From positions 4,712,001 to 4,776,000 of the forward strand of contig NZ_CP102592.1 in NCBI RefSeq assembly GCF_025666195.1: a stretch of 64,000 nucleotides of DNA. The letters are read 5' to 3'. A model generated the notes under the pieces. It was not told where the DNA came from. It worked only from the letters and a program-made list of their open reading frames with translations, and made no database searches. The first letter of the stretch is position 1; each line of letters opens with the position of its first letter. Shown here in pieces: positions 48,710 to 64,000 of this stretch. This stretch comes from Xanthomonas sp. CFBP 8443. GTDB lineage: Bacteria; Pseudomonadota; Gammaproteobacteria; Xanthomonadales; Xanthomonadaceae. The translations under genes and the position numbers were made by a program.

Positions 48710-49698
48710 CCACCGCCCCCGCCGAATCCGTCGCCCCCCTCACCGGCCCCGCCCTGATCGAACGCGTCGAGGCGATCCGCGACGCGGTCGGCCAGGCCTT
48801 CATCGGCCAGCCGGAGGTGCTCGAGCAGATCCTGATCGCGCTGCTGGCCGGCGGCCACGTGCTGATCGAAGGCGTGCCCGGGCTGGGCAAGACCCTGCTG
48901 GTGCGCGCGCTGGCGCAGGCGCTGGAACTGAACTACGCGCGCGTGCAGTTCACCCCCGACCTGATGCCCAGCGACGTCAGCGGCCATGCCGTGTACGACC
49001 CCAAGACCGAGAGCTTCAAGATCCGCCGCGGCCCGGTGTTCACTCACCTGCTGCTCGCCGACGAGATCAACCGCGCCCCGGCCAAGACCCAGTCGGCGCT
49101 GCTGGAAGTGATGCAGGAAGGCCAGGTCACCATCGAGGGCAAGGCCTTCCCGCTGGCGCCGCCGTTCCTGGCCCTGGCCACGCAGAACCCGGTCGAGCAG
49201 GAAGGCACCTATCCGCTGCCGGAAGCGCAGCTGGACCGCTTCCTGCTGAAGATCCTGATCGACTATCCGCAACTGGAGGACGAGAAGCGGATGGTGGAAG
49301 CGGTCACCACCGGGCGCAGCGCCGGCGACTTCGACCTGTCGCAGGTGCCGCGCGTGCTCAGCGCCGACGACGTGGTGGCGATGCAGCTGGGCACCGCGGC
49401 GATCGCGGTGGACCCGCAGGTGATCGACTACGCGGTGCGCATCGTTGCCGCCACCCGCAGCTGGCCGGGCATCGCGCTCGGCGCCGGCCCGCGCGGCAGC
49501 ATCGCCCTGATCCGCGCCGCGCGCGCACAGGCGGTGCTGTCCGGCCGCGACTTCGTCACCCCCGACGACATCCGCGACATCGCCAAGCCGGCGCTGCGCC
49601 ACCGCATCGCCCTGGCCCCGGAACTGCAGATCGAAGGCCAGAGCGCCGACGACGCGCTGGGCGCGTTGCTGGCGAAGGTGGAGGCGCCGCGGAAATGA
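48706..49698 (+). CDS. MoxR-family AAA ATPase
   Basis: Encodes 330 residues. Walker A IEGVPGLGKTLLVRALAQAL, Walker B LLLADEINRAPAKTQSALLE, sensor region ALATQNPVEQEGTYPLPEAQ with LDRFLLKI, then the AAA lid. MoxR proteins act as chaperones for membrane complexes or VWA proteins. The gene set (DUF58 next, DUF4129/DUF4350 before) is the classical MoxR partner set. It overlaps the DUF4350 gene by ATGA (48706-48709). Confidence 0.93.
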   Translation: MTTAPAESVAPLTGPALIERVEAIRDAVGQAFIGQPEVLEQILIALLAGGHVLIEGVPGLGKTLLVRALAQALELNYARVQFTPDLMPSDVSGHAVYDPKTESFKIRRGPVFTHLLLADEINRAPAKTQSALLEVMQEGQVTIEGKAFPLAPPFLALATQNPVEQEGTYPLPEAQLDRFLLKILIDYPQLEDEKRMVEAVTTGRSAGDFDLSQVPRVLSADDVVAMQLGTAAIAVDPQVIDYAVRIVAATRSWPGIALGAGPRGSIALIRAARAQAVLSGRDFVTPDDIRDIAKPALRHRIALAPELQIEGQSADDALGALLAKVEAPRK

Positions 49699-49712
49699 GG
49701 CTGCTTGGGAAG

Positions 49713-49856
49713 CGGGACCGGGGACCGGGGACCGGGGACCCGGACAAGCGCGGCATCGGCGCTGCGGATACCTGGATCCTGGCTTGCAGCCACCGCAGCC
49801 CGACCCCGCGTCCGCCCCATGACCACCGGGTCCCCGGTCCCCGGTCCCTGGTCCCG
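49713..49856. repeat. 31-bp inverted repeat inside the MoxR operon
   Basis: Three GGGACCG-type tandem units at 49713-49743 are the reverse complement, in 30 of 31 positions, of 49826-49856. The arms frame 82 bp of unrelated sequence. The element is the only sizeable gap in an otherwise overlapping operon (166 bp between moxR-like and DUF58). A hairpin here could lower readthrough into the DUF58 gene. Confidence 0.85.
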
Positions 49857-49864
49857 ACGTCCCC

Positions 49865-51163
49865 ATGAGACCCGCCCCGCCCCTGCTGGTCCTGCTCGGC
49901 CTGTGGGCGCTGTGCGGCCTGGCCGCGGCGCTGCAGTTCCTGCCGCTGTGGCCGTGGCAGGCGCTGGGCGCGGCGATCGGCGTGATCGCGGCGATCGATG
50001 CGTGGCGGCTGTGGCGCCGGCCGACCCCGCAGCTGCGCCGCACGCTGCCCGAGGCCTTGCCGCTGGGCGTGGAGCGCAAGGCCGGGCTGCGCATCGACAG
50101 CGCGCAGCGGCAGACGCTGGACGTGTTCGACCTGGTGCCCGGCGGCTGGTGGATGCAGGGCATGCCGCGGCGGGTGCGCGTGCCCGCCGCCAGCGAAACC
50201 CACCTCACCTACCGGCTGCGCCCCACCGCGCGCGGCCGCTTCGAGTTCCCCGGCACGCACCTGCGCCTGCACTCGGCCTGGCGCCTGTGGCGGCAGCGGC
50301 GCGTCGCCGGCGCGGTGCAGACGGTGCGCGTGTACCCGAACTTCGCGCCGCTGACCCGTTTCGCCCTGTTCAGCGCCGAACAGGCGTCGCGGCTGGTCGG
50401 CGCGCACCTGAAACGGCGCCGCGGCGAAGGCACCGACTTCCACCAGATGCGCGAATACCGCGTCGGCGACAGCCTGCGCCAGATCGACTGGAAGGCCACC
50501 TCGCGCGCGCGCAAGCTGATCTCGCGCGAATACCAGGACGAGAAGAACCAGCAGCTGCTGATGCTGATCGACACCGGGCGGCGGATGATGGCCAGCGAAA
50601 GCGGCCTGTCGCATTTCGACCACGTGCTCAACGCCGCGCTGGTGGTGTCGTACCTGGCGCTGCGCCAGGGCGATGCGGTGGGGCTGATGGCCAGCGGCGG
50701 CGACGCGCGCTGGGTCGCGCCGCAGCGCGGCATGGGCACCGTCGATGCGCTGCTGCGCGCCAGCTACGACCTGCAGCCGCAGGCGGTGGCCACCGACTAC
50801 CTGGCCGCGGCCACCGAACTGTCGCTGCGCCAGCGCCGGCGTTCGCTGGTGATGCTGGTCAGCAACGTGCGCGACGAGGACATCGAAGACCTGCTCGCCG
50901 CGGTGCGGCTGCTGCAGCGCCGCCACCTGGTGTGCGTGGCCAGCCTGCGCGAGCGCGAGCTGGACCAGGCGCTGGCGCAGGAGGTCGGCGACCTGCAGCA
51001 GGCGGTGCAGGCCGGCGCGGTGGCGCGCTACCTGCAGCAACGCGGCGACGCCCACGAGGCGCTGCGCAGCCACGGCGTGATGGTGCTCGACGTCACCGGC
51101 GAGGAACTGCCGGGCGCGCTGGTGGAGCGCTATCTCGCGGTCAAGCGCGACGGATTGCTGTAG
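49865..51163 (+). CDS. DUF58 protein
   Basis: Encodes 432 residues. Two N-terminal membrane segments (PPLLVLLGLWALCGLAAALQ) precede a DUF58 domain with the hallmark EGTDFHQMREYRVGDSLRQI and DWKATSRARKLISREYQDEK. The von Willebrand-like MIDAS is degenerate: LMLIDTGRRMM in place of DxSxS. DUF58 proteins are usual substrates or partners of MoxR ATPases. It is the last gene of the operon. Confidence 0.9.
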   Translation: MRPAPPLLVLLGLWALCGLAAALQFLPLWPWQALGAAIGVIAAIDAWRLWRRPTPQLRRTLPEALPLGVERKAGLRIDSAQRQTLDVFDLVPGGWWMQGMPRRVRVPAASETHLTYRLRPTARGRFEFPGTHLRLHSAWRLWRQRRVAGAVQTVRVYPNFAPLTRFALFSAEQASRLVGAHLKRRRGEGTDFHQMREYRVGDSLRQIDWKATSRARKLISREYQDEKNQQLLMLIDTGRRMMASESGLSHFDHVLNAALVVSYLALRQGDAVGLMASGGDARWVAPQRGMGTVDALLRASYDLQPQAVATDYLAAATELSLRQRRRSLVMLVSNVRDEDIEDLLAAVRLLQRRHLVCVASLRERELDQALAQEVGDLQQAVQAGAVARYLQQRGDAHEALRSHGVMVLDVTGEELPGALVERYLAVKRDGLL

Positions 51164-51487
51164 TCCCGCGCTCGCCGCGCGGACGATCCCGTAGACAAGT
51201 CTGCGCGGCGCCGCAACAGCGCTGCGCTGCCGGCTGAGGCGTTTATGACCGGATGAAACAGGCGCTCGGCCATGCCGCGCTTCGCGCTGCGTGGTCCGCG
51301 CGTTGATGCACTGCGCATTTATATTTCACGCGTCGCCATTTTCTTGGCAGTTGTGGCAGAAACTTTACAGCCGCCGTCATAAAAGCGTTCGCGGATAGTC
51401 ATTTATCGCTCCTAAGGTCCTCGCCGCATTGCAGCGGTCTTCATAAGCGGCAGCACGCCGCGCGCCGAAGTCAGGGGATATTTTCAG
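51164..51487. promoter_or_regulatory. Leader and probable promoter of the TPS locus
   Basis: A 324-bp gap with a clearly AT-richer second half (51309-51450, ATTTATATTTCACG) that contrasts with its surroundings. It contains GTGGCAG and TTTACAG-like repeats at 51344-51370 but no site that meets a known consensus. No terminator with a T-tract was recognised after the DUF58 gene. The TPS operon presumably starts here. Confidence 0.5.
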
Positions 51488-53098
51488 ATGGAGTTGCGAA
51501 TCTTCGCAGCGCTCGGCTTGGCCGTGTGCGGCGCGCCGTGCGCCTTCGCCGCGGACGTGCCGGCGGCGCGTTTCGACGTGATGGCCTACCAGGTCGTCGG
51601 CAATACCGAACTGAGCGCGGCGGACATCGAGCGCGTGGTGTATCCGTTCCTCGGCCCGCAGCGCAGCGAGGCCGACGTGGAGGCGGCGCGCGCCGCGTTG
51701 CAGACGCTGTACGCCAACAAGGGGCTGGCCACGGTCGCGGTGAGCGTGCCCGAACAGGATGCGGGCAACGGCCTGGTCACCCTGCAGGTGAGCGAGCAGC
51801 GCATCGGCCGGCTGCGCGTGAACGGCGCCAGCTATTTTTCTCCGGATGCGGTCGAGCGTGGCGCGCCGTCGTTGAAGGAAGGCACGGTGCCCAACTTCAA
51901 GGACGTGCAACGCGACATCGTCGCGCTGAACCAGTTGCCCGATCGGCGGGTGACGCCGGACATCAAGCCCGGCGTCGGGCCGAACACGGTGGACGTCGAT
52001 CTGAAGGTGGACGACAACCTGCCCCTGCATGGCTCGGTGGAACTGAACAATCGCAGCAGCGCCAACACCAGCGACCTGCGCCTGAACGCCACGCTGCGCT
52101 ACGACAACCTGTGGCAGCGCGGCCACAGCGTCAGCCTCTCGGCGCAGACGGCGCCGGAGCGCACCTCCGACGCCAAGGTGCTGTCGCTGTCCTACCTGGC
52201 GCGCCTCACCGATTCGCCGTGGTCGCTGCTCGCCTATGCGGTGCGCAGCGACAGCGACATCGCGGTGATCAGCGATTTCAACGTGATCGGCAACGGCACC
52301 CTGGCCGGCCTGCGCGCGATCCGGGCACTGCCGGCGCAAGCCGGGTTCTTCCACTCGCTGAGCCTGGGCATCGACTACAAGGACTTCAAGGAAGAGTCCA
52401 ATTTCGGCGCGAGCGTGGACTCCTCGCCGATCAAGTACTACCCGCTCAATCTCGCCTACAACGCCGACTGGGCGGGCGAGCGCACGCACAGCAGTTTCGG
52501 CGCCACCTTGACCGCCAATCCCGGCGGTCTCGGCGCCGGTGCCGACCGCTGCGGCAACGACCATTGCAATCCTTCCGCGCCGGGCAGCTTCGACTACAAG
52601 CGCTACAACGCGCGCCCGAACTTCTTCCACGTGCGCCTGGAAGGCTCGCATACGCGCACGTTGGGCAAGGACGTCCAGCTGTTCGGCCGCGCGCAGACGC
52701 AGCTGGCCGCCGAACCGTTGATCAGCAACGAGGAAATGAGCATCGGCGGCATGGACACGGTGCGCGGCTATAAGGAAAGCGAAGCGCTGGGCGACTACGG
52801 CGTGACCGCACAGCTGGAACTGCGCAGCCCCTCGTTCGCCAGCTGGTTTGGTGCCGCCGCGCAGGAGGCGCGCGCGCGCGCCTTCGTCGACGGCGGATAC
52901 GTGCGCATCCACAAGCCGCTGCCCGAGCAGACCCCGAGCGAGACGCTGGTGAGCGTCGGCATCGGCGCGACCGCGCAATTCTTCGATCACTTCAACGGCT
53001 CGGTCGATCTCGCCGCGCCGCTGTCGCGGCCTGGCGGCGACAACGCGCCGAAACAGGACGATCTGAACGTGCTGTTCCGGGTGTGGGGCGAGTTCTGA
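51488..53098 (+). CDS. Two-partner secretion outer-membrane transporter (FhaC/ShlB type)
   Basis: Encodes 536 residues. A signal peptide (MELRIFAALGLAVCGAPCAFAA) is followed by POTRA regions (FDVMAYQVVGNTELSAADIE, ... VPEQDAGNGLVTLQVSEQRI) and a beta-barrel of alternating strands. The conserved L6-loop signature GGMDTVRGYKESEALGDYGV lies near residue 420, and the chain ends in an aromatic-rich strand finishing VLFRVWGEF, with a terminal Phe as in outer-membrane proteins. It should export the giant exoprotein encoded at the end of the window. Length is normal for TpsB proteins. Confidence 0.93.
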   Translation: MELRIFAALGLAVCGAPCAFAADVPAARFDVMAYQVVGNTELSAADIERVVYPFLGPQRSEADVEAARAALQTLYANKGLATVAVSVPEQDAGNGLVTLQVSEQRIGRLRVNGASYFSPDAVERGAPSLKEGTVPNFKDVQRDIVALNQLPDRRVTPDIKPGVGPNTVDVDLKVDDNLPLHGSVELNNRSSANTSDLRLNATLRYDNLWQRGHSVSLSAQTAPERTSDAKVLSLSYLARLTDSPWSLLAYAVRSDSDIAVISDFNVIGNGTLAGLRAIRALPAQAGFFHSLSLGIDYKDFKEESNFGASVDSSPIKYYPLNLAYNADWAGERTHSSFGATLTANPGGLGAGADRCGNDHCNPSAPGSFDYKRYNARPNFFHVRLEGSHTRTLGKDVQLFGRAQTQLAAEPLISNEEMSIGGMDTVRGYKESEALGDYGVTAQLELRSPSFASWFGAAAQEARARAFVDGGYVRIHKPLPEQTPSETLVSVGIGATAQFFDHFNGSVDLAAPLSRPGGDNAPKQDDLNVLFRVWGEF

Positions 53099-53128
53099 AT
53101 CCGGCTTCTCTGCCAAGGAAATTTAGTT

Positions 53129-53320
53129 ATGAAGACCTCCGCAATTTCCCGCTCGATCGTCGGCAACGCGCGCTACGGCGCCACGCTCGGCAGCCGGTTC
53201 GGTGTCGTCATGGGCAGGCCGCACGCGGGCACCGCCATCGACGTCAAGCACCACGGTCCGGGACGCGCGCCGATCGGGACGCAGTACGCCGGCGTGGCCG
53301 GATCCACCGGTTCCAACTAA
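53129..53320 (+). CDS. 63-residue protein of unknown function in the TPS locus
   Basis: Encodes 63 residues: MKTSAISRSIVGNARYGATL at the start, HHGPGRAPIGTQYAGVAGST before the terminal GSN. The ribosome site AAGGAA is 11-15 bp before the ATG. It is rich in glycine and alanine with no clear signal peptide, membrane segment or cysteine. It is 30 bp after the transporter gene and 57 bp before the next gene, so it is surely cotranscribed. It could be a pilot peptide, a regulatory or secreted peptide, or a leader; I recognise no family. Confidence 0.6.
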   Translation: MKTSAISRSIVGNARYGATLGSRFGVVMGRPHAGTAIDVKHHGPGRAPIGTQYAGVAGSTGSN

Positions 53321-53377
53321 TCCACCACTCATGACGGATGCAGCGATGCATTCGGGTCGACGCTCGGAGAACGAAAG

Positions 53378-55159
53378 ATGGCGGTATATGGATTGCGCTT
53401 CATGCTGGCGGCCGCGTTGCTGCTGTCGGCGCTCCCGGCTTCGGCCGCGACCTGGTGGGACGGCAAGTGGAACTACCGGGCCAAGCTGACCCTGGACACC
53501 ACCTCCACCGGCGCGGCGCTGAGCCAGCCGTCCGGGCGCGCGCAGGTGCTGGTGCGCCTGCATTCGGGCAACTTCAACTTCGCCGACGCCAAGGCCGACG
53601 GCAGCGACGTGCGCTTCGTCGCCGGCGACGACCGCACGCCGCTGAAGTACCACTTCGAGAAGTACGACGGGCTGGTCGACCAGGTGGCGCTGGCCTGGGT
53701 CGACCTGCCCGAGTTGCCGGCCAACGCCAGCACGCCGCTGTACGTCTACTTCGGCAATCCCGAGGCCAGCGGCGGCGGCGATGCGAAGGGCAGCTACGAC
53801 GCCGATACGGTCGCGGTCTACCACTTCGCCAACGCGCAGGCGGCCGCCGCCGACAGCACCGCCTACGCCAACAACGCCGCGCCGCCGCTGGACCTGGCCG
53901 ACGCCGCGCTGATCGGCGCCGGCCTGCGCCTGGACGGACGCGCGCCGGTGACGGTGCCGGCCTCGGCATCGCTGAACTGGCCGGCGGCGCAGCCGACCAC
54001 CGTGTCGCTGTGGGCCAAGCCGGCCAGCGCCAACGCCTCCGGCGTGCTGCTGACGCTGCCCGGCGCGCTGACCCTGCGCCTGCAGGAAGGCCGCGTGCTG
54101 GCCGAGTTCGGCGCGGCGGCGCCGGCCGCGCAGATCGCCGCCACCACCGCGCTGCCGGCCGACGCCTGGGCGCATGTGGCGCTGCGCAGCGACGGCAAGA
54201 CCGCCACCCTGTTCGTCAACGGCCAGCCCGCCGGCGAGACCGCGGTGGCGTTGCCGGCCAGCAACGGCGGCCTGCTGCTCGGCGGCGAGCCGGGCGCGGC
54301 GCGGCCGAACTTCATCGGCCTGCTGGACGAAGTCGAAGTGGCCAAGAACGCGCGCCCGGTCGGCGCGATCGAAGCGGCGGCGCGCAGCCAGGGCGTGGAT
54401 GCGCGGTTGGCGCGCTTCGATCCGGTCGAACAGCAGTCGGGCGATGGCGGCCACAACTACTTCGGCATCCTGATCGCCGCGCTGACCCCGGATGCATGGG
54501 CGGTAATCGGGATCCTGGCGGTGATGGCGCTGATCAGCTGGTGGGTGATGGTGCGCAAGGGCCTGTACCTCAACGCCACTGCCGGTGCCAATGCGCGCTT
54601 CCTCCACGCCTACCGCCAGCAGGTGGCCGCGCATCCGCTGCACGCGCCGCACTGGCAGCAGCTCGGCACGTCGGCCGGCGTGCGTTCCAACCTGGCGCGG
54701 CTGCTGCAGGTCGGCCAGCAGGAACTGCGCGAGCGTCTGCAGGCCAGCGGGACCAACGTGGTGCGCACGCAATCGATCGCGGCGATCCGCTCGGCGCTGG
54801 ATGCGGCCGCGGTGCGCGAAGGCCAGCGCATCCACAAGGGCATGGTGCTGCTGACCATCGCCATCTCCGGCGGCCCGTTCCTGGGCCTGCTCGGCACCGT
54901 GGTCGGGGTCATGATCACCTTCGCCGCGGTGGCCGCCGCCGGCGACGTCAACATCAACGCGATCGCCCCCGGCATCGCCGCCGCGCTGCTGGCCACGGTG
55001 GCCGGCCTGGCCGTCGCGATCCCGGCGCTGTTCGGCTACAACTACCTGCTCAGCCAGGCCGAAGCGGTCTCGGCGGACATGCAGGTGTTCGTCGACGAAC
55101 TGGAAAAACGCATCGCCGAAGACTATGCCGGCGACGCGCCGGCGCGCGCGGGAGGCTGA
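53378..55159 (+). CDS. DUF2341-LamG-ExbB fusion protein
   Basis: Encodes 593 residues. After a signal peptide (FMLAAALLLSALPASAATWW), residues about 25-140 form a DUF2341 domain (WWDGKWNYRAKLTLDT, PLKYHFEKYDGLVDQVALAW, LYVYFGNPEASGGGDAKGSY). Next, at about 145-320, comes a LamG/concanavalin-like domain (VAVYHFANAQ, WAHVALRSDGKTATLFVNGQ). The final 230 residues are an ExbB/TolQ/MotA channel (KGMVLLTIAISGGPFLGLLG, TVVGVMITFAAVAAAGDVNI, APGIAAALLATVAGLAVAIP) preceded by an extra membrane segment (VIGILAVMALISWWVMV). So a putative carbohydrate- or ligand-binding periplasmic head is fused to a proton channel. ExbD and TonB genes follow. Confidence 0.9.
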   Translation: MAVYGLRFMLAAALLLSALPASAATWWDGKWNYRAKLTLDTTSTGAALSQPSGRAQVLVRLHSGNFNFADAKADGSDVRFVAGDDRTPLKYHFEKYDGLVDQVALAWVDLPELPANASTPLYVYFGNPEASGGGDAKGSYDADTVAVYHFANAQAAAADSTAYANNAAPPLDLADAALIGAGLRLDGRAPVTVPASASLNWPAAQPTTVSLWAKPASANASGVLLTLPGALTLRLQEGRVLAEFGAAAPAAQIAATTALPADAWAHVALRSDGKTATLFVNGQPAGETAVALPASNGGLLLGGEPGAARPNFIGLLDEVEVAKNARPVGAIEAAARSQGVDARLARFDPVEQQSGDGGHNYFGILIAALTPDAWAVIGILAVMALISWWVMVRKGLYLNATAGANARFLHAYRQQVAAHPLHAPHWQQLGTSAGVRSNLARLLQVGQQELRERLQASGTNVVRTQSIAAIRSALDAAAVREGQRIHKGMVLLTIAISGGPFLGLLGTVVGVMITFAAVAAAGDVNINAIAPGIAAALLATVAGLAVAIPALFGYNYLLSQAEAVSADMQVFVDELEKRIAEDYAGDAPARAGG

Positions 55160-55163
55160 GCCG

Positions 55164-55568
55164 ATGAAGGTCCAAGGCAAGAAGCCCTACGACGACATCA
55201 ACATCACGCCGATGCTGGACCTGGCGTACGTGCTGCTGGTGATCTTCATCATCATGACCACCGCCGCGGTGCAGGGCATCAAGGTGGAACTGCCCAAGGC
55301 CAGCGCGGCCAAGCCGTTGTCCGAGCCCAAGACCAAGGTCATCGCGATCGACAACAACGGCCAGGTCAGCCTGGACGCGGTGCCGGTGAGCATGAGCGAA
55401 CTGGAACAGCAGCTGCGCAACGCGCTGGCCAGCGACGCCGAGTTGCCGGTGATGCTGCGCGGCGATCGCACCGTGCAGTACGAGAAGGTGATGGCGGTGC
55501 TGGACCTGTGCAGCCGGCTCGGCATCGCCTCGATCGGCCTGGCCACACAACGCCAGGCGGCCGGCTGA
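55164..55568 (+). CDS. ExbD-type biopolymer transport protein
   Basis: Encodes 134 residues. N-terminal membrane segment LAYVLLVIFIIMTTAAVQGI carries the key aspartate just before it (INITPMLDLAYV). A periplasmic domain follows (VELPKASAAKPLSEPKTKVI). With the fused ExbB above it should form the proton-motive stator for TonB. It starts 4 bp after the ExbB-fusion stop and ends against the TonB start. Confidence 0.92.
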   Translation: MKVQGKKPYDDINITPMLDLAYVLLVIFIIMTTAAVQGIKVELPKASAAKPLSEPKTKVIAIDNNGQVSLDAVPVSMSELEQQLRNALASDAELPVMLRGDRTVQYEKVMAVLDLCSRLGIASIGLATQRQAAG

Positions 55569-56249
55569 GTGGACGCGATGGATCCCCTGCAATACGCCGA
55601 ACCGCCGCGACGCTGGCTGAAAGCCGGCGCCGCGGTGCTGGCGCTGCTGGTGCTCGGCTGGCTGGCCACGCTGCTGCTGCGCCCGCAGCAGGCGACGCCG
55701 GCGCGCGCGCAGCCGCCGCGCATCACCCAGGTGATGCTGCCGCCGCCACCGCCTCCGCCGCCGCCCAAGCCCGATCCGCAGCCGCCCAAGCCGCAGGAAC
55801 AGCCGCAGCCGATGCAGGCGGCCGAGCCGACCCCGCAACCGAAGCCGGACGCCGAAGCGACGCCGCCGGGCGATCCGCTGACCGCGCCGGCCGGCCCCGG
55901 CGACAACGCCTTCGGCCTGCAGGCCGGCGATGGCGGCGGCACCCGCATCGGCGGCAAGGGCGGTGGCGGCAGCCCGTTCGGCGGCTATGCGGCCAGCGTG
56001 CAGCGCGCGGTGCAGCAGCTGTTGCAGCGCGACGAGCGCACCCGCAAGGGCCGCTACAGCGCGACCGTGGCGCTGTGGCTGAACCCGGACGGCAGCATCG
56101 GCCGCCTGCAGATCCTGAGCTCGGCCGGCAAGCCGGAACTGGACGCGGCGATCGTGCGCGCGCTGCAGGACCAACCGCTGCCGCAACCGCCGCCCGCCTC
56201 CCTTCCCCAACCCATCCAGTTGCGCATCGGCGCCCTGGCGCCGGGCTGA
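55569..56249 (+). CDS. TonB-family energy transducer
   Basis: Encodes 226 residues (GTG 55569; ATG 55578 is possible). One membrane anchor (AGAAVLALLVLGWLATLLL), a proline-rich linker ([20 protein letters not shown]), a glycine-rich stretch and a TonB C-terminal domain with RKGRYSATVALWLNPDGSIG and LQILSSAGKPELDAAIVRAL. It spans the periplasm to couple the inner-membrane motor to an outer-membrane protein. The gene follows exbD without a gap. Confidence 0.9.
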   Translation: MDAMDPLQYAEPPRRWLKAGAAVLALLVLGWLATLLLRPQQATPARAQPPRITQVMLPPPPPPPPPKPDPQPPKPQEQPQPMQAAEPTPQPKPDAEATPPGDPLTAPAGPGDNAFGLQAGDGGGTRIGGKGGGGSPFGGYAASVQRAVQQLLQRDERTRKGRYSATVALWLNPDGSIGRLQILSSAGKPELDAAIVRALQDQPLPQPPPASLPQPIQLRIGALAPG

Positions 56250-56277
56250 CGCCGCGTTTCGTACCAAGGACCCCAGC

Positions 56278-57993
56278 ATGACCACTCCGTTTCCTCTCCA
56301 CCGTCCGTCCCGGTTGCGCCTGGCCCTGCTGGCGCTGCTGCTGGCGCCGGGCGCGGCCATGGCCCAGTCCGCCGCGACCGCGATCGATCCGGCGCAGATC
56401 AACCCGCAGGTGACGCTGCGGCTGATCGACCTGCTGGTCGCCAAGGGCGTGATGACCCGCGCCCAGGCCGACGACCTGATCCGCGAAGCCTCCGCCACGG
56501 CCGCTGCTGCGCCGGCCCCGGCGGCGGCCGGCGCGGCGCCGTACCAGACCCAGCCCGGCGCGGTGGTGGTGCAGTACGTGCCCGAACCGGTGCGCCAGCA
56601 GATCAAGGACGAACTGCGCGCCGAAGTCACCGCGCAGGCCAAGTCCGAAGGCTGGGCCACGCCCGGCGCGCTGCCGGAATGGACCCAGCGCGTGCGCGTG
56701 TACGGCGATCTGCGCGTGCGCGGCGAAGGCGTGTTCAACGCCGACGACAACTACGCGTTCTTCCCCGACTTCGGCGACATCAACGCCGGCTCCGGCTTCG
56801 ACGTGGTCGGCGCCAACAACGCGCCGTTCGTCAACACCACGCGCAACCGCAGCCGCATGCGCGTGCGTGCGCGGCTCGGGGTGAGCGCGCAGATCGCCGA
56901 CTGGGTGCAGGCCGACTTGCGCCTAGCCACCGGCAGCGACCGCAGCCCGGTGTCCACCAACCAGACCCTGGGCGGCGGCGGCAACCTGTCCAAGTACTCG
57001 CTGTGGCTGGACCGCGCCGCGCTGCAGCTGACCCCGATCGACGCGTTGACCCTGACCTTCGGCCGCTTCGCCAATCCGTTCTGGAGCAGCGAACTGGTGT
57101 TCGACAACGACCTGAACTTCGACGGCGTGGCCGCGCGCTACGACTTGGCCGCCGACGACGACGATGCCGACTTCGCGCCGTGGATCAGCGCCGGCCTGTT
57201 CCCGGTCTACAACACCGAGTTCGATTTCGGCTCCACCAGCACCAGCAAGACCCGCAGCCGCGACAAGTGGATGTACGGCGCGCAGCTGGGCGCGCGCTGG
57301 CGCTTCGCCGACGACATGGCGCTGCGCGTGGGCCTGGGCTACTTCCAGTACGACCAGTTCGAGGGCAAGCGCTCGTCGCCGTGCCTGGCGCCGACCTCGG
57401 CCGACAGCTGCGACACCGATGGTTCGCGGCCGCAGTTCCAGCAGTTCGGCAATACCTTGTTCGCGCTGCGCGACATCGTCGCCGATCCGGCCAATCCCAA
57501 TGGCCCGCAGCTGCAGTACTACGGCTACGCCAGCAAGTTCGGCGTCGCCGACCTGCACGCGCAGCTGCAGCTGGACCAGTTCGCGCCGGTGACACTGCTG
57601 CTCGAGGCCGACGTGGTCAAGAACACCCGCTACAACGCCACACGCGTGCGCTCGCTGGGCCCGGTCAACAACCTCGGCGACCAGGGCGTGTTCGACGGCG
57701 GCGACATGGGCTACTACCTCAATTTCACCGTCGGCCAGCCCAAGCCGGTGCAGCCGGGCGACTGGAACGTCAGCGTCGGCTACAAGTACCTGGAATCGGA
57801 TGCGGTGCCGGACGGCTTCACCGATTCGGATTTCCATCTCGGCGGCACCAATGCGCGCGGCTTCATCGTCGGCGGCAACTACGCGCTGGCGCGCAACACC
57901 TGGGTCGGCCTGCGCTGGCTCAGCGCCAACGAGATCTCCGGCGCGCCGTTCGCGGTGGACCTGCTGCAGCTCGACCTCGGCACGGAGTTCTGA
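56278..57993 (+). CDS. Putative porin with N-terminal coiled coil
   Basis: Encodes 571 residues. A signal peptide (LALLALLLAPGAAMA) is followed by a short helical segment (VTLRLIDLLVAKGVMTRAQA) and alanine-proline linker, then a beta-barrel (RVRVYGDLRVRGEGVFNADD, RMRVRARLGVSAQIADWVQA, ... ending VDLLQLDLGTEF with terminal Phe). It matches the putative-porin family (Pfam Porin_5, as I recall). No TonB-box or plug is evident, so it is not a TonB-dependent receptor in the classical sense. It probably serves the TonB unit upstream. Confidence 0.85.
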   Translation: MTTPFPLHRPSRLRLALLALLLAPGAAMAQSAATAIDPAQINPQVTLRLIDLLVAKGVMTRAQADDLIREASATAAAAPAPAAAGAAPYQTQPGAVVVQYVPEPVRQQIKDELRAEVTAQAKSEGWATPGALPEWTQRVRVYGDLRVRGEGVFNADDNYAFFPDFGDINAGSGFDVVGANNAPFVNTTRNRSRMRVRARLGVSAQIADWVQADLRLATGSDRSPVSTNQTLGGGGNLSKYSLWLDRAALQLTPIDALTLTFGRFANPFWSSELVFDNDLNFDGVAARYDLAADDDDADFAPWISAGLFPVYNTEFDFGSTSTSKTRSRDKWMYGAQLGARWRFADDMALRVGLGYFQYDQFEGKRSSPCLAPTSADSCDTDGSRPQFQQFGNTLFALRDIVADPANPNGPQLQYYGYASKFGVADLHAQLQLDQFAPVTLLLEADVVKNTRYNATRVRSLGPVNNLGDQGVFDGGDMGYYLNFTVGQPKPVQPGDWNVSVGYKYLESDAVPDGFTDSDFHLGGTNARGFIVGGNYALARNTWVGLRWLSANEISGAPFAVDLLQLDLGTEF

Positions 57994-57995
57994 GC

Positions 57996-58661
57996 ATGCG
58001 CCGCCTTCCCTCCCGCCTGGCCTGCGGCATGCTCGCCGCGACGCTGCTCGCCATCGCCCCGCTGCACGCGCAGGACAGCACCGAGACGCGGCTGCGCGAA
58101 GCGCTGCGCGACACCGGCGCGCGGCTGCGACAGGCCGAGGCCGCGCTGGTCCAGCAGCAGCTGGCGACCGCCGCCGCCGAACGCGAGCGCGACGCGCTGC
58201 GTGCCGCGCCAGCGCCGCGTGCCGCAACTGCCGACCCCGGCCGCGAGGCCGCGTTGCAGCGGCAGCTGCTGCAGGCGCAGCGCGAACGCGATGCCGCGCT
58301 CGCGCAGCGACGCGAACAGCAGCAGGCGCAGGTCAACGCCGCGCAGGCCGCAACCCAGCAGGCGCAGGCACGGGCGACGCTGGACGCGGAACTGCAGCGC
58401 CAGCGCGCGCGGATGGCGCAATGCGCCACCGGCAGCGACGCGTTGTACGCCACCGCGCGCGAACTGGCCGCGCTGTACCGCGATCCGGCCTTCGTGCGCT
58501 TCGTGCGCAGCCACGGCCGCGAGCTGTTCGGCATGGCCAGGGTGACGCGCGAGAACCGCGTGCGTGCGCTGGAAGACCGCCTGGCCGAGCAGCACGCGCA
58601 GACCCAGGCCTGCTCCACCACCGCGGCTGTGGCCACCACGCCGCAGGACGCTGCGCAATGA
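57996..58661 (+). CDS. Exported coiled-coil protein
   Basis: Encodes 221 residues. After a signal peptide (MLAATLLAIAPLHAQDS), residues about 28-140 are a long alanine/glutamine/arginine-rich helix predicted to coil. A compact C-terminal part has LYATARELAALYRDPAFVRF and FVRSHGRELFGMARVTRENR. Two cysteines (QCATG, QACST) could form a disulphide. Lies 2 bp after the porin stop and overlaps the next gene by ATGA. Function unknown, perhaps a periplasmic partner of the secretion system. Confidence 0.8.
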   Translation: MRRLPSRLACGMLAATLLAIAPLHAQDSTETRLREALRDTGARLRQAEAALVQQQLATAAAERERDALRAAPAPRAATADPGREAALQRQLLQAQRERDAALAQRREQQQAQVNAAQAATQQAQARATLDAELQRQRARMAQCATGSDALYATARELAALYRDPAFVRFVRSHGRELFGMARVTRENRVRALEDRLAEQHAQTQACSTTAAVATTPQDAAQ

Positions 58662-59011
58662 GCCGCGCCAGCGTCGCGCTGGCGTGGCTGGCGCTGGCCG
58701 CGCCGACCGTCGGCACTGACACCGCGCTCGCCACGCCGCCGGCGATCGCGCCGTGCGTGCAGGTGCGGGTCGGCGAGGACGTCGCCGGCCACCTGGACTG
58801 CCTCAACCAGGCGTTGCGCGAAGCCGCCGCCAACGCCCGCCCGAGCGCCCCGCCGCTGGCCGCCGCCGCGACCGCGCTGGATCCGCTGCAACGCGGGCAG
58901 CCCACGCCGGCCGCGCTGCGCCAGCGCTACGGCAACGCCTACGGGCGTTCGCTGACCCCGCAGCGGCCGCAGCCGCACTACCTCCCCACTCCGTTCGCTC
59001 CGGCGCGCTGA
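58658..59011 (+). CDS. Small exported protein of the TPS locus
   Basis: Encodes 117 residues. An N-terminal hydrophobic stretch (SVALAWLALAAPTVGTDTAL) could be a signal peptide. A CVQVRVGEDVAGHLDCLNQA motif has two cysteines, and the rest is proline- and alanine-rich (PHYLPTPFAPAR at the end). No known fold. Translationally coupled to the preceding coiled-coil gene and 24 bp before the giant exoprotein gene. Confidence 0.75.
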   Translation: MSRASVALAWLALAAPTVGTDTALATPPAIAPCVQVRVGEDVAGHLDCLNQALREAAANARPSAPPLAAAATALDPLQRGQPTPAALRQRYGNAYGRSLTPQRPQPHYLPTPFAPAR

Positions 59012-59035
59012 CGCGCCGCTACCGAGATCGCCGCC

Positions 59036-62000
59036 ATGCCCCGCAACCGTCGCCGCCGTCGCAACCGCCTCCGCCGTCCCCTTCGCCTGCTGGTGCTGAG
59101 CCTGGCGATCTCGGCCGCCCTGGTCGGCCGCAGCCAGGCGCAGACCAGTCCGTTCGTGCGCCGTGGCGCCGATCCGGGCGCGCAGGCAGCGGCGGCCGCG
59201 CAGCAACAGGGATTGCAGTCGGCGGCGGCCAGCGCCCTGGCGCAGAAATCGCTGCAGGCCTTCCAGCGCGCCGCGCAGGCCCGGCAGAGCCTGGACGCGA
59301 TGCAGGCCGCCGCGCGCGCCGCGGCGCAGGCATCGCAGGCCGGCATGGTGCCGGACGGCCTCGGCAAGGGCGGCCTGCAACTGCCTGACGGCGCGATCAT
59401 CGATCCGGGCGCGGTGCGCAGCGACGACCCGCGCCTTGGCCAGCGCAACGTCTGGCTGGGCGCACGCGCGCCGACCCAGCAGGTGGTCGGCGGCGACACC
59501 CAGGTCACCATCCAGCAGACCCAGAAGAAGGCGATCCTCAACTGGGAAACGTTCAACGTCGGCAGCCGCACCCGCCTGCAGTTCGACCAGTCCGCCGGCG
59601 GCAGCGACGCGGCGCAGTGGATCGCGCTGAACCGGGTCAACGACCCGAGCGCGGCGCCGAGCAAGATCCTGGGTAGCATCCAGGCGCCGGGCCAGGTGTA
59701 TCTGCTCAACCGCAACGGCGTGCTGTTCGGCGGCGCCAGCCAAGTCAACGCGCATTCGCTGCTGGTGTCCTCGCTGGACCTGTTCGACGCCAACCGCGCG
59801 CTCAGCGACCAGACCTTCCTCGCCCGCGGCCTGTTCGGCGTCGCCGGCCAGAGCGGCGTGGTGCTGACCGGACTGGACGGCATGGCCGCCGGGCAACCGC
59901 CTGGCGACATCCAGATCGACAGCGGCGCGCGCATCGCCAGCGGCAGCCAGGGCTACACCCTGATCGCCGCGCCGAACGTCGGCAACGCCGGCACGGTGAC
60001 CGCGCAGGACGGGCAGGTGATGCTGGCGGCGGTGCTGGGGCTGCGGCAGAGCACGGCGTTGCCCAGCGCCGCCGGCAACGTGCTGCCGGTGGGCTTCAGC
60101 GGTTTCTCGCTGCCCGGCGCGGCAATGGGCCAGATCGGCTCACTGGACAACAGCGGCGTGGTCGCCGCAAGCCGCGGCGATGCGACCCTGGTCGGCTACG
60201 ACGTGCGCCAGCGCGGCGTGGTCAGCGCCACCACCAGCATCAGCCGTCCGGGCAACGTATCGCTGCTGGCGATCGACCAGAACGGCAACTACACCGGCAA
60301 CGACGGCGCGATGCCCTATCTGGGCGGGCGCCTGGAGCTGGCGGCCGGCGCGCTCACCGCGGTGCTGCCCGAACGCGACGGCGAGACCACCACCTCCGGC
60401 GCCAGCGCCGACCAGGCCTTCGTCGCGCCATCGCTGACCCTGGCCGGCGCGCAGGTGCGGATCGGCACCGATACGCAGGTGCTGGCGCCGGGCGCGACGA
60501 TGAACGTGACCGGGCTGAGCCGTAACGATGCGCCCGACCGTGGCCGCACGCTGCTCAACGACCGCATCCTGGTGGAAAACGGCGCGCAGTTGAGCGTATC
60601 CGGCCTGGCCGACGTGCAGCGCGACATGTCCAGCAACCTGGTCAAGATCCCGCGCGTGGGCCAGAACGAACTGGCCGACTCGCCGCTGCAGCGCGACGGC
60701 GCATTGGCCCGCCAGGCGCTGCAGTTCGACCGTCGCGCCAGCGGCATCCGCGCCGACGGCGTGGCCTGGGTGGGCAGCCCGCTGCTCAACGCGCAGGGCT
60801 ATGTCGACCAGGTGCCGCGCACCATCGACGACATGCTGCTGGACGGCGGCACGATCAACCTCAGCGGTAGCGACGTGGTGCTCAATCCGGGTGCACGGCT
60901 GGACCTGGACGGCGGCTACCTGCACGTGCGCGGCGGCATGGTGGAGACGCCGCGGCTGCTCGGCAGCAACGGCCGTCTGTACGACCTGGCCAGCGCCGAT
61001 CCGTCGCTGACCTACGTGGGCATCGCCGGCGATCAAACCCACCACCATGCGCGCTGGGGCGTGACCGAGCGCTACAGCAATCCCCTGCTCGGCAGCCGCC
61101 GCTACTACGAGAGCGACTACCTGGAAGGCGGTGACGCGGGCAGCCTGAACATCACGCTGGACCGCCACTACGACAACGTGCAGGGCCGCGAGACGCTGGG
61201 CGCGCTGGTGCTCGGCGGCGCGCTGTCGGCGCAGGCGGTGTCCGGCCGCTACCAGGTGTCGTCCGCCGCGCCGGCGCGTGGCGGCGCGTTGCACCTCGAC
61301 GGCGGCGATGGGCGCAGCTGGCAGATCGTTGCCGATACCCCGGTGACGGCCGGGCCGGACCTGGACACGTCGGTGGAGGAATTGGCCGACGCCGGCCTGG
61401 CGCCGCAGGATCCGCGCCATCCCGGTTACTGGTCGCAGTTGTCCGCGCGCTGGGTGCAGGAGGCCGGCCTGGCCTCGGTCGGCGTAAAGACCGCCAACGG
61501 CGTCATCGAGGTCGCCGCGGACGCGCGCCTGCAGGTCGCCGACGGCGGCAGCATCGCGCTCGATGGCGGACGCGTCGACGTGCAAGGCACGCTGATCGCG
61601 CGCGCTGGCGATATCGCGTTGGACAGCAGGGGAGGCGACCTGCGGATAGCCGCTCCCGGCCAGGACGCGCTGCTGGCGTTCGGTCGCGGCGACCTGCTGG
61701 TCGGCGGCGGCGCGCTGCTGGACGTAAGCGGACGGTGGGTCAACGACGACCGCCGCCTGACCCAGACCCCGCAAGGCCAAGCCTTCATCGACGGCGGCAC
61801 GCTGTCGCTGCGCACGCAGCAACGCGTGGACACCGATGCCGACGGCATCCGCCACGACAACACCGGTTCGATCCTGATCGCAGCGGGTGCGTCGCTGCGC
61901 GCCAACAGCGGCGGCTACGTCGATGCCGACGGCGAACTGGCGATGCGCGACGGGCGCCCGCTGGGCCGCGGTGGCGACATCGGCCTGCAGACCTACCTGC

Positions 62001-64000
62001 GCCCATCCAATGACAGCACCGCCGACCCGACCTACGTAGTGGATCTGACGCCGGCCGAGGGCGCCGGACGCCTTCAGTTCGATCCGGCCAGCCTGCAGGC
62101 CGACAGCTTTGCCGGCGGCGGCACGCTGACGCTGCGCGCGCTGGGCGTGCAGATCGGCGGCGACGCGCCGGCCGATGCGCGCATCCTGCAACTGGACCCG
62201 GCGTTCTTCGCCGCGCACGGATTCGGCAGCTACGACCTGGCCGCCGAACGCGACGCCGGCATCGCCGCCGGCACCCAAGTGCGCGTCAGCCAGCGCAACC
62301 TGCTGCCCGACGTGCAGGCGCTGCGCGCCGCGTCCAGCGGCACCGACGTGCTGGCTGGACTGCGCGATGGCGGCAACGGCTACGTGCGCCTGGGCCAGCT
62401 GGATCCGTTCTATCGACCGGCCACCGACTTCGCCCTGCGCGCCGGCGACTATCTCGGCCGCGTTGCCGGCAATCCCGTCCACAGCGCCGCCTCGGGCACG
62501 CTGGAACTGGCGCAAGGCGCGCAGCTGACGCTGGATCCGGGTGCGGCGGTACGGCTGGGCTCGCGCGGGCAGGTCAACGTCTTCGGCCAGATCAGCGCGC
62601 GCGGCGGCGAGGTCGTGCTGTCCGGCGATACCACCCAGCAGTCGGGGCTGGCCCCGCCACCCGGCGGGGACAACGGCCGCGCCTACGCCGATGCCGGCAA
62701 GTCGGTATGGCTGGGCGCGGACAGCCGCGTGGACGTGTCCGGTATCGTCCTGTCCGATCCAGCGCCCACGCTGCAGCCCAGCGAACGCGGACCGGTGATG
62801 CCGCGCGGCGGGCGCGTGCTCGACGGCGGCACCGTCACCCTCAGCAACGACGGCGGCTACGTGGTCGTGGAGGCCGGCGCGCAACTGGATCTTTCCGGCG
62901 CCTCGGCGGTGTTCGACCTGCCCACCGGCGCCGGCCTGTTCGGCGGCGCCACGCCGAGCCTGCAAGCACAGACCGTGTGGAGCGACGGCGGGCGCCTGAC
63001 CCTGGCGGCCAGCGCCGGGCTGTTCTTCGACGGCCGCATCCAGGCCCACGGCGGTGCCGCGCAGGCGCAGGGCGGCACCCTCGCGCTGCTGCCCCTCAGC
63101 CAGGTCGGCAGTCGCACTCCGAACGGATTCGCCGCCAAGGGCCTGATCTTCACCCAGAGCGACAGCCATCTGCCGGCCGGCGCACAGCCGGGCCAGGCGC
63201 TGGAACCGGCGTTGGCCGCGCCGTCGGGGCTGCTGTACTTCGCCGCCGACCGGCTGGCCGACAGCGGCGTCCAGACCCTCTACGCCGGCGTGCAGAACCC
63301 CAGCGGCAGCGACGCCACCCCGCCGCTGGTCCCGATCGGCTTCAGCGGCGATGTGGACCTGTCGCTGGCGCGTGCGCTGGTGTTCAACGCCCCGTCCTAT
63401 GCGCTGCTGGCGCCGCAGGCCGGCAGCTTCGGCGCGCTCGCCGACAGCGGTCAGGTGACGCTGTCGGCCGCCTATGTCGGCCTCAACGGCTGGCGTCCGG
63501 CCACCGCCGATGCGAGCCTGGTCGAACCGCCGGCGCCCGGCGCCGCCAGGTTGACGGTGCAGGCCCAGCACATCGACCTGGGCGGCCAGTTCGCGCTGAA
63601 TGGCGTGGGCCTGGCGCAATTCCACAGCCAGGGCGACCTGCGCCTGCATACGCCCGCGGCCTACGCCTTCCAAGGCACCACCACGCCACTGCCGCGCGCC
63701 GGCGAACTGCTCACTGCCGGCGACCTGGAATTCCGCGCCGCGCAGTTGTACCCGGCCAGCGGCGAGACCTTCCTGATCCGCGCACTGGGCGCGCTCGATC
63801 CGCAGACCGGGGTGCGTGCCGACACCCGCATCGACATCGCCGACCACGGCGGCGATGCGGCGCTGCCGCTGTCGGCGGGCGGCACGCTGGCGCTGGACGC
63901 CACCGAGATCGAACAGCACGGCACCGTGCGCGCCCCAGGCGGACGCCTGCTGCTCGGCGTCGGCGCCGCCGGCGAGGACGCCACCGCACGCGCGCTGTTC
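59036..64000 (+). CDS. Giant filamentous-haemagglutinin-type exoprotein (TpsA), partial
   Basis: Open for at least 1,655 residues without a stop, running past the window end. It begins with a very arginine-rich N-region (MPRNRRRRRNRLRRPLRLLV), then a hydrophobic signal core (LSLAISAALVGRSQAQ). A glutamine/alanine-rich helical spacer (about residues 50-110) precedes the TPS domain at about 135-260: TQKKAILNWETFNVGSRTRL, WIALNRVNDPSAAPSKILGS, GQVYLLNRNGVLFGG and NAHSLLVSSLDLFD are typical. After it come glycine-rich repeats of beta-helix type (LDLDGGYLHVRGG, GTLELAQGAQLTLDPGAAV, GTVRAPGGRLLLG). It is the secreted partner of the transporter at 51.5 kb; the C-terminus is not visible. Confidence 0.93.
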   Translation, partial: MPRNRRRRRNRLRRPLRLLVLSLAISAALVGRSQAQTSPFVRRGADPGAQAAAAAQQQGLQSAAASALAQKSLQAFQRAAQARQSLDAMQAAARAAAQASQAGMVPDGLGKGGLQLPDGAIIDPGAVRSDDPRLGQRNVWLGARAPTQQVVGGDTQVTIQQTQKKAILNWETFNVGSRTRLQFDQSAGGSDAAQWIALNRVNDPSAAPSKILGSIQAPGQVYLLNRNGVLFGGASQVNAHSLLVSSLDLFDANRALSDQTFLARGLFGVAGQSGVVLTGLDGMAAGQPPGDIQIDSGARIASGSQGYTLIAAPNVGNAGTVTAQDGQVMLAAVLGLRQSTALPSAAGNVLPVGFSGFSLPGAAMGQIGSLDNSGVVAASRGDATLVGYDVRQRGVVSATTSISRPGNVSLLAIDQNGNYTGNDGAMPYLGGRLELAAGALTAVLPERDGETTTSGASADQAFVAPSLTLAGAQVRIGTDTQVLAPGATMNVTGLSRNDAPDRGRTLLNDRILVENGAQLSVSGLADVQRDMSSNLVKIPRVGQNELADSPLQRDGALARQALQFDRRASGIRADGVAWVGSPLLNAQGYVDQVPRTIDDMLLDGGTINLSGSDVVLNPGARLDLDGGYLHVRGGMVETPRLLGSNGRLYDLASADPSLTYVGIAGDQTHHHARWGVTERYSNPLLGSRRYYESDYLEGGDAGSLNITLDRHYDNVQGRETLGALVLGGALSAQAVSGRYQVSSAAPARGGALHLDGGDGRSWQIVADTPVTAGPDLDTSVEELADAGLAPQDPRHPGYWSQLSARWVQEAGLASVGVKTANGVIEVAADARLQVADGGSIALDGGRVDVQGTLIARAGDIALDSRGGDLRIAAPGQDALLAFGRGDLLVGGGALLDVSGRWVNDDRRLTQTPQGQAFIDGGTLSLRTQQRVDTDADGIRHDNTGSILIAAGASLRANSGGYVDADGELAMRDGRPLGRGGDIGLQTYLRPSNDSTADPTYVVDLTPAEGAGRLQFDPASLQADSFAGGGTLTLRALGVQIGGDAPADARILQLDPAFFAAHGFGSYDLAAERDAGIAAGTQVRVSQRNLLPDVQALRAASSGTDVLAGLRDGGNGYVRLGQLDPFYRPATDFALRAGDYLGRVAGNPVHSAASGTLELAQGAQLTLDPGAAVRLGSRGQVNVFGQISARGGEVVLSGDTTQQSGLAPPPGGDNGRAYADAGKSVWLGADSRVDVSGIVLSDPAPTLQPSERGPVMPRGGRVLDGGTVTLSNDGGYVVVEAGAQLDLSGASAVFDLPTGAGLFGGATPSLQAQTVWSDGGRLTLAASAGLFFDGRIQAHGGAAQAQGGTLALLPLSQVGSRTPNGFAAKGLIFTQSDSHLPAGAQPGQALEPALAAPSGLLYFAADRLADSGVQTLYAGVQNPSGSDATPPLVPIGFSGDVDLSLARALVFNAPSYALLAPQAGSFGALADSGQVTLSAAYVGLNGWRPATADASLVEPPAPGAARLTVQAQHIDLGGQFALNGVGLAQFHSQGDLRLHTPAAYAFQGTTTPLPRAGELLTAGDLEFRAAQLYPASGETFLIRALGALDPQTGVRADTRIDIADHGGDAALPLSAGGTLALDATEIEQHGTVRAPGGRLLLGVGAAGEDATARALF

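Follow-up and report, generated by a model that had tools for sequence, protein, structure and literature searches.

A Xanthomonas two-partner secretion locus of the DUF3739 class carries ExbB, ExbD and TonB genes and a Porin_5 porin

In the textbook account, two-partner secretion (TPS) needs just two proteins and no source of energy. We analyzed a 64,000-nucleotide stretch of Xanthomonas sp. CFBP 8443 DNA (contig NZ_CP102592.1, positions 4,712,001 to 4,776,000; hereafter the window), in which a TPS transporter gene, tpsB, and an exoprotein gene, tpsA, enclose genes for an ExbB fusion, ExbD, TonB and a large porin of the Porin_5 family. As an earlier note on this DNA had described, all six lie on the plus strand with short gaps, and the widest of these, separating tpsB from the exbB fusion, measures 279 bp. 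The C-terminus of TpsA is a DUF3739 domain (PF12545, 115 bits). Comparison across genomes establishes a locked set made up of the DUF3739 exoprotein, TpsB, the ExbB fusion, ExbD, TonB and Porin_5.

The association was measured in a panel of 397 Pseudomonadota genomes, with up to 3 Porin_5, 5 TpsB and 11 DUF3739 candidates scored per genome. DUF3739 exoproteins are found in 19/397 genomes and full-length Porin_5 (at least 390 bits) in the identical 19, which span 11 family labels (Fisher test, 8e-33, not corrected for phylogeny). ShlB-type TpsB is present in 195/397 genomes, in 192 of them over the cut-off. It should also be noted that eight panel genomes without DUF3739 have weak or partial Porin_5 matches of 19-129 bits, which were not counted as full-length. 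Seven of the eight fall under family label f117 and seven match the profile in two pieces, and they represent a related but different porin group.

The same linkage is seen at the level of loci. Adding four genomes from a class panel (DUF3739 in 8/114 there; Porin_5 was not searched as such in its negatives) gave a set of 23 DUF3739 genomes, in which 23/25 Porin_5 copies have an ExbB match within 3.3 kb; the ExbB reading frame is long in 21 of these, and the other 2 lie where a contig ends. These genomes hold 52 TpsB (56 entries minus 4 second pieces of split matches). An ExbB fusion-type match lies within 30 kb on the contig for 22/24 TpsB at DUF3739 or porin loci, and within 100 kb for 0/28 other TpsB (Fisher test for the contrast, 1e-12). 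The ExbB list set against the TpsB positions comprised, among the matches listed, those with a long frame plus two shorter matches, from G336 and G086; for ordinary ExbB close to the remaining 28 TpsB the check was by eye only. The window genome, a single contig of 5.24 Mb, illustrates the pattern: it has five TpsB matches and only two DUF3739 exoproteins, each beside a TpsB accompanied by an ExbB fusion and Porin_5. The link between TPS and a motor, which the earlier note proposed from the window alone, is therefore stronger than first seen, holding for the DUF3739 class and not for the other TpsB of the same genomes.

There are exceptions. In G326 the porin, TpsB and TpsA share one contig and the long ExbB lies elsewhere, in G008 the ExbB is 28 kb away, and in G086, G234 and G336 the parts are on separate contigs, with no TpsB match in G336. 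The 23 genomes contain 30 DUF3739 matches and 25 porins, three genomes having more TpsA than porin. G281, G431 and G336 each encode two or three DUF3739 exoproteins alongside a single porin, as though one core were shared among several TpsA.

To describe gene order we used 64 named loci from an ExbB-fusion scan of genome contigs, which span Xanthomonas, Lysobacter, Bradyrhizobium, Methylomonas, members of the Burkholderiales and bins assigned to Verrucomicrobiota. Setting aside seven in which the sequence after ExbB is too short, and L076, which does not belong to the family, leaves 56 testable loci. ExbD, TonB and Porin_5 follow the ExbB fusion in that order, on the same strand, in all 56, and the grouping is not chance. 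The core is not always gapless, as several loci have space for another gene between ExbD and TonB. The placement of the TPS genes varies: TpsB can precede ExbB with TpsA at the far end, as in the window, and TpsA-TpsB or TpsB-TpsA can both precede ExbB. Therefore, the fixed core is the motor plus the porin. Common PhoB control could in principle keep co-regulated neighbors together with no shared mechanism, but the identical 19 genomes over 11 family labels and the constant core order make this very improbable. The cassette also occurs in Verrucomicrobiota metagenome bins (L029, L031, L042 and L074; Spartobacteria, Chthoniobacteraceae and Opitutaceae), which suggests transfer between phyla or mixed bins.

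Profiles detected no TPS gene in 10/64 named loci, where other TPS types were not searched with Pfam. Flanks are fair for L028, L036 (only 4.5 kb upstream), L051 and L062, and truncated on at least one side for L043, L060, L071, L075 and L077; the tenth is the non-member L076. At L028 the core lies beside a glycosyltransferase and an XrtA-system chain-length determinant (306.6 bits, cut-off 278.9), and at L036 beside a polysaccharide export protein and a Wzz match just above cut-off. At L051 the chain-length and polysaccharide matches are all below the Pfam cut-offs, making the exopolysaccharide setting weak. Since these four fairly flanked loci carry the core without detected TPS genes, the core is not TPS-bound in every case, and since two, perhaps three, of them lie among polysaccharide genes, it seems to accompany exported surface polymers. 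We also examined 108 of 153 selected neighboring open reading frames (ORFs) from a subset of loci. The commonest domain was a PpiC-type isomerase (9), followed by FecR (6); the PpiC-type isomerase fits a role in biogenesis.

The window locus is almost certainly of the Pdt type known from Pseudomonas aeruginosa, and a second copy in its genome, without VreAIR-type signaling genes. ExbB-ExbD-TonB-porin genes stand beside TPS genes, the exoprotein carries DUF3739, and a scan of flanking ORFs (window 45837-51163 and L007:3245-10477) gave neither a sigma-factor nor a FecR domain. The other copy, locus B (L078:6080-13166 plus L010; genome 4.48-4.51 Mb, minus strand), reads STN-like protein, extracytoplasmic function (ECF) sigma factor, FecR-like regulator, TpsA, TpsB, ExbB fusion, ExbD, TonB, Porin_5. 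Its sigma and FecR domains are present; in the STN-like protein, STN falls below the cut-off and there is a partial FecA match. This is the order of P. aeruginosa pdtA-phdA-pdtB-exbB2-exbD2-tonB4-PA0696, minus phdA, and because locus B keeps it, we read the window locus as a rearranged Pdt-type locus. The parallel with pdt drawn previously is supported. Upstream at locus B, a TonB-dependent receptor (798 aa) adjoins a 390-aa Y_phosphatase3 protein, which may provide a phosphate link. Another genome with the Pdt gene order, G234 (L085), is probably a Pseudomonas; its ExbB is likewise fused to DUF2341-LamG, and its Porin_5 scores 696 bits. The ORF preceding its TpsB has a transposase-type DUF772 domain, matching the first description of PA0691.

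An alignment of 61 sequences shows strong conservation in the channel part of the ExbB fusion, and the membrane aspartate of ExbD is present in 61/61. The pore glutamate of canonical ExbB/TolQ, which we take to be E176 in E. coli numbering, is replaced in 60/60 (alanine in 55, glycine in 5). Among channel controls from the same genome, L079 and L082 keep the glutamate and L083 has lysine, with L080, L081 and L084 outside this comparison. Profile scores place the two window subunits closer to TolQ/TolR than to ExbB/ExbD. The DUF2341-LamG head may bind a ligand, as the earlier note suggested; channels of this kind with DUF2341 appendages have already been noted as unexplained (PMC12505986; here and below, papers are cited from excerpts). 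The view that the function of the pdt motor is not settled agrees with PMC7035377, whose cited portion calls the Ton genes an uncharacterized putative system. In the open-access literature searched, the titles and opening lines of abstracts that were listed revealed no study of this motor's role, and none of the papers combined any two of PF12545, PF16930, DUF3739 and Porin_5; one has Porin_5 together with TonB.

The AlphaFold2 model of Porin_5 (pLDDT 83) has two N-terminal periplasmic helices, a further helix and about 16 strands, with no plug, and no Pfam match to a Plug domain was found in the protein. Its closest PDB structure is Veillonella OmpM1, an attachment porin (8bym; E 5e-14, TM 0.70 by target and 0.42 by query), with other porins and DcaP ranking lower. 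As modelled, Porin_5 would be an unplugged barrel and not a TonB-dependent receptor. The OmpM1 match, the TolQ/TolR-like channel scores and the presence of the core at both TPS and exopolysaccharide-type loci could all be explained by an envelope brace, in which a Tol-like motor and an OmpM1-like porin hold the outer membrane to the wall where large polymers exit, with no direct action on TpsA. However, OmpM1 tethers through an SLH domain, which is not among the Pfam matches of Porin_5, and no Pal- or TolB-type Pfam match was found in the locus proteins scanned. We consider such a brace improbable.

TonB boxes were sought with a profile built from 30 receptors of the same genome, whose known boxes score at least 10.3 in-sample. 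The best score was -2.0 at the N-terminus of TpsB; Porin_5 reached 0.6 at its N-terminus and 7.0 anywhere (residue 136, at the start of the barrel). TpsA ends in a conserved terminal strand (PSVITVQVIGLGD in the window) that resembles a TonB box. The window tail scored 7.1 (4.6% of segments as good), and family-wide 3/36 tails fell at or below the 5% level (median 29%), the best tail reaching 8.0, so the strand was rejected as a TonB box. It is a conserved, unexplained feature: a pattern built from 34 aligned TpsA ends occurs within the last 75 residues of 31 of those same sequences and in 0 of the 11,729 preceding residues. The model of the TpsA C-terminus (pLDDT 83) comprises a beta-helix, a helical insertion and a loose tail, and its fold search gave no PDB match at E of 0.001 or below.

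We tentatively favor a reading in which the motor, through Porin_5, acts on the display or release of a long surface polymer, the TpsA fiber. TpsB would export TpsA as in any TPS system, and TpsA would be a long beta-helical fiber with a DUF3739 cap and the conserved terminal strand on a flexible tether. The proton gradient would drive the ExbB-ExbD channel, which would work TonB, and TonB would act on Porin_5, its constant neighbor. Motor and porin might then hold, position or release the fiber at the surface, during or after export; one set of TpsB, motor and porin may serve several TpsA, and expression would follow phosphate starvation via PhoB. Energy use, contact between TonB and the porin, and the effect on the fiber are the steps that we infer. 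We favor this reading because the core follows exported polymers (TpsA and, at a few loci, polysaccharide-type genes), because one core may serve several TpsA (30 DUF3739 matches to 25 porins), and because the neighboring genes point to biogenesis. The shared set of 19 genomes, the constant core order and the channel scores leaning toward TolQ also speak for it. The machine might work like the SiiAB motor of a giant Salmonella adhesin or the Agl-Nfs motor that moves a surface glycan in Myxococcus; SiiAB is described as serving a type I secretion system (PMC12204202) and Agl-Nfs as moving spore glycan (PMC3858216). A broader version, which we regard as speculative and rather doubtful, sees in ExbB(DUF2341-LamG)-ExbD-TonB-Porin_5 a portable machine, powered by protons, that handles long polymers exported to the surface. 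It would be plugged into DUF3739-class TPS and, in a few lineages, into exopolysaccharide loci, and would move, position or release the polymer via the unplugged porin.

A different use of the motor would be to drive TpsA through TpsB itself, compensating for very long passengers. The lock with one TpsA class only would fit such powered export, as would several TpsA sharing one TpsB and motor. The window TpsB also counts in its favor: about 7 residues separate the signal peptide (cleavage placed by eye) from the first POTRA domain, unlike in the L001 TpsB, so that judged from the sequence it has no space for an H1 plug helix. Among other motor-linked TpsB, the linker is about 4 residues in L090 and longer in the rest (33 aligned and 7 more), mostly Ala/Pro-rich and up to about 65 residues in L023. 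H1 would therefore be excluded only in short-linker TpsB such as those of the window and its close relatives. The helix is common in TpsB and not strictly defining for type Vb secretion, and its absence need not matter for export. Furthermore, to our knowledge TPS passengers of similar length are exported motor-free, TpsB has no TonB box, and the core occurs without detected TpsB at exopolysaccharide-type loci. Powered export through TpsB is thus unlikely.

Phosphate dependence, which had been proposed for examination, finds support in the sequence upstream of tpsB. A conserved PhoB-type box there (51376) scores 12/15 against three GTCAT spaced at 11 bp. Across both strands of 171 kb of the genome's own DNA (341,446 positions), five other sites score at least 12, and all are in L094, the piece carrying two pstS genes. 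GTCAY-N17-GTCAY is found upstream of tpsB in 9/9 Xanthomonas, Luteimonas and Lysobacter loci (L014-L022) and was not found there in L025 or L027. A two-half-site Pho score did not single out the window site, being matched in 11% of shuffles. PhoB control of the window locus is our inference from these sites.

Because of this box and of PstS-like neighbors, uptake is a close rival to display or release, though a doubtful one. Surface TpsA would capture or free a ligand, possibly phosphorus-containing, Porin_5 would admit it when energized or gated by the motor, and a PstS-like protein would bind it inside. PstS-like genes adjoin tpsA in both the window genome and G234 and lie close to tpsB in L037 and L047, and a porin with TonB is a usual layout for uptake. 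Several tpsA genes in R. palustris and Janthinobacterium are described as having their own PUMA3-type sensor genes (PMC2729926), and in HxuABC there is a precedent in which HxuA/HxuB work with a TonB-dependent receptor, HxuC (PMC5422565). However, the Porin_5 model is plugless and its N-terminus has no TonB box, and simple TonB-dependent uptake is further disfavored by the lack of a convincing box in Porin_5 as a whole, in TpsB or, family-wide, in TpsA. PstS-like ORFs were found in just 2/64 named loci, many of them short, and the core also occurs at exopolysaccharide-type loci. Among the 25 commonest of 137 neighbor domain families, the only clearly transport-named one is ABC_transp_aux, with 2 members.

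Several points weigh against motor-driven display or release. TPS export is usually regarded as motor-independent. The replaced pore glutamate means that proton use is not certain. Of the TPS and polysaccharide genes tested for, none was detected at the L062 core, and the PhoB-type box with a PstS-like neighbor fits uptake at least equally well. In addition, the cited part of PMC2729926 reports that in P. aeruginosa overexpressing VreI, insertion mutants of PA0695 (a tonB homologue), tpsA and tpsB were as virulent as the wild type in zebrafish.

The features of the locus are listed in Table 1. The genome is close to Xanthomonas, its ExbB fusion being 96% identical to that of Xanthomonas sp. 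AmX2 and 92% to that of X. theicola.

Table 1. Features of the Pdt-type locus, in window coordinates
Feature	Position	Strand	Evidence or remark
PhoB-type box (putative), upstream of tpsB	51376-51402	+	GTCAT, GTTCG, GTCAT at 11-bp steps
TpsB outer-membrane transporter	51488-53098	+	ShlB PF03865 84 bits, POTRA_2 PF08479 54.6 bits, both over cut-off
ExbB-type subunit of a predicted proton channel; signal peptide, periplasmic DUF2341/Laminin_G_3 head	53378-55159	+	DUF2341 50, Laminin_G_3 64, MotA_ExbB 95.5 bits
ExbD/TolR-type subunit	55164-55568	+	103 bits; start 55164 family-supported, ORF readable from 55125
TonB-like protein, proline-rich linker	55569-56249	+	TonB_2 C-terminal domain 48 bits; start may be 55578
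Porin_5 outer-membrane protein	56278-57993	+	633 bits
Small protein, 221 aa, signal-peptide-like start, coiled-coil-like	57996-58661	+	similar ORFs in 19/64 named loci
Small protein, 117 aa, 4-bp overlap with preceding gene	58658-59011	+	similar ORFs in 16/64 named loci
tpsA, 5' part	59036-64000	+	N-terminal TPS domain PF05860 70.5 bits (cut-off 33.5); adhes_NPXG 67 bits

The tpsA gene is incomplete in the window and runs 7 kb beyond it, to the equivalent of 71047 (L007:3047), encoding 4003 aa. The two small ORFs between Porin_5 and TpsA were absent from the earlier list of genes; a Pfam scan of both gave no family over cut-off, and the 221-aa protein is comparable by position to P. aeruginosa PA0697. 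The tpsB-exbB gap also contains a 63-aa ORF (53129-53320); none of the 64 named loci has a relative of it, and it probably does not belong to the system. No sigma-70-like site or plus-strand terminator, as a sign of a separate promoter for the motor genes, was found in 51100-59200, which is weak evidence. The PstS-like gene after tpsA (L007:3245-4702) encodes a PBP_like_2 protein with a sub-cut-off PstS match. Beyond it (L007:5256-10477) follow genes for a glutathionylspermidine-synthase-type enzyme and an ilvD-type dihydroxy-acid dehydratase and, in opposing orientation, an ORF of the Phage_integrase family; chromosomal integrons beside ilvD are known in Xanthomonas. Upstream (window 45837-51163) lie genes for MoxR-type ATPase, DUF4350 and DUF58 proteins, apparently an unrelated operon.

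New here are the identity of the genomes carrying DUF3739 and full-length Porin_5, the core order, the predicted unplugged porin, the replacement of the ExbB glutamate, the PhoB-type box and the cores free of detected TPS genes. Recurrence across distant bacteria suggests that giant proteins of the DUF3739 class belong to a powered machine rather than to simple two-protein export. If exoproteins of this class are almost always accompanied by a proton-type motor and a porin, their biology has been interpreted from only half of the components, and the same would apply to P. aeruginosa PdtA, which is expressed during infection. Should the portable-machine reading be true, a whole class of 'two-partner' secretion would be a powered machine of at least five parts. 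The co-occurrence makes the role of exbB2-exbD2-tonB4 directly testable, and the core loci of the exopolysaccharide type offer a natural control separating polymer handling from TPS export.

Compared with known systems, the locus shares with canonical TPS (FhaB/FhaC, ShlA/ShlB, CdiA/CdiB) the TPS domain of TpsA and the POTRA and ShlB domains of TpsB, but a motor and a porin are attached, TpsA ends in DUF3739 and TpsB appears to have no space for H1. With the TonB-ExbB-ExbD and Tol systems it shares a three-protein motor and the conserved ExbD aspartate; it differs in the DUF2341-LamG head on ExbB, in the replaced pore glutamate and in having no TonB-dependent receptor in the locus. HxuABC of Haemophilus influenzae likewise links a TPS pair to an outer-membrane uptake protein, but HxuC is a TonB-dependent receptor, whereas the window has a porin modelled as unplugged and its own motor. 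SiiAB of Salmonella is a motor dedicated to a type I-secreted giant adhesin; SiiAB and AglRQS-Nfs are proton-driven motors dedicated to an adhesin or a surface glycan, and the likeness is one of analogy only.

The closest relative is P. aeruginosa Pdt (pdtA-phdA-pdtB-exbB2-exbD2-tonB4-PA0696 to PA0699), with which the locus shares the TPS pair, ExbB, ExbD, TonB, a putative porin and small proteins. PA0696 is listed as a putative outer membrane porin (PMC7035377), phosphate-starvation control with Pho boxes is described for Pdt (PMC7035377, PMC4971064, PMC2729926), and homologues of the TPS proteins, ExbBD and PA0696 with PUMA3 have already been noted in several genera (PMC2729926); the soil strains Pseudomonas fluorescens Pf0-1 and P. 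protegens Pf-5 (named P. fluorescens Pf5 there) are among those reported to have such PUMA3-linked genes. In P. aeruginosa tpsA lies upstream of tpsB, whereas in the window it is at the far end, with the PhoB-type box preceding tpsB and the PstS-like gene following tpsA.

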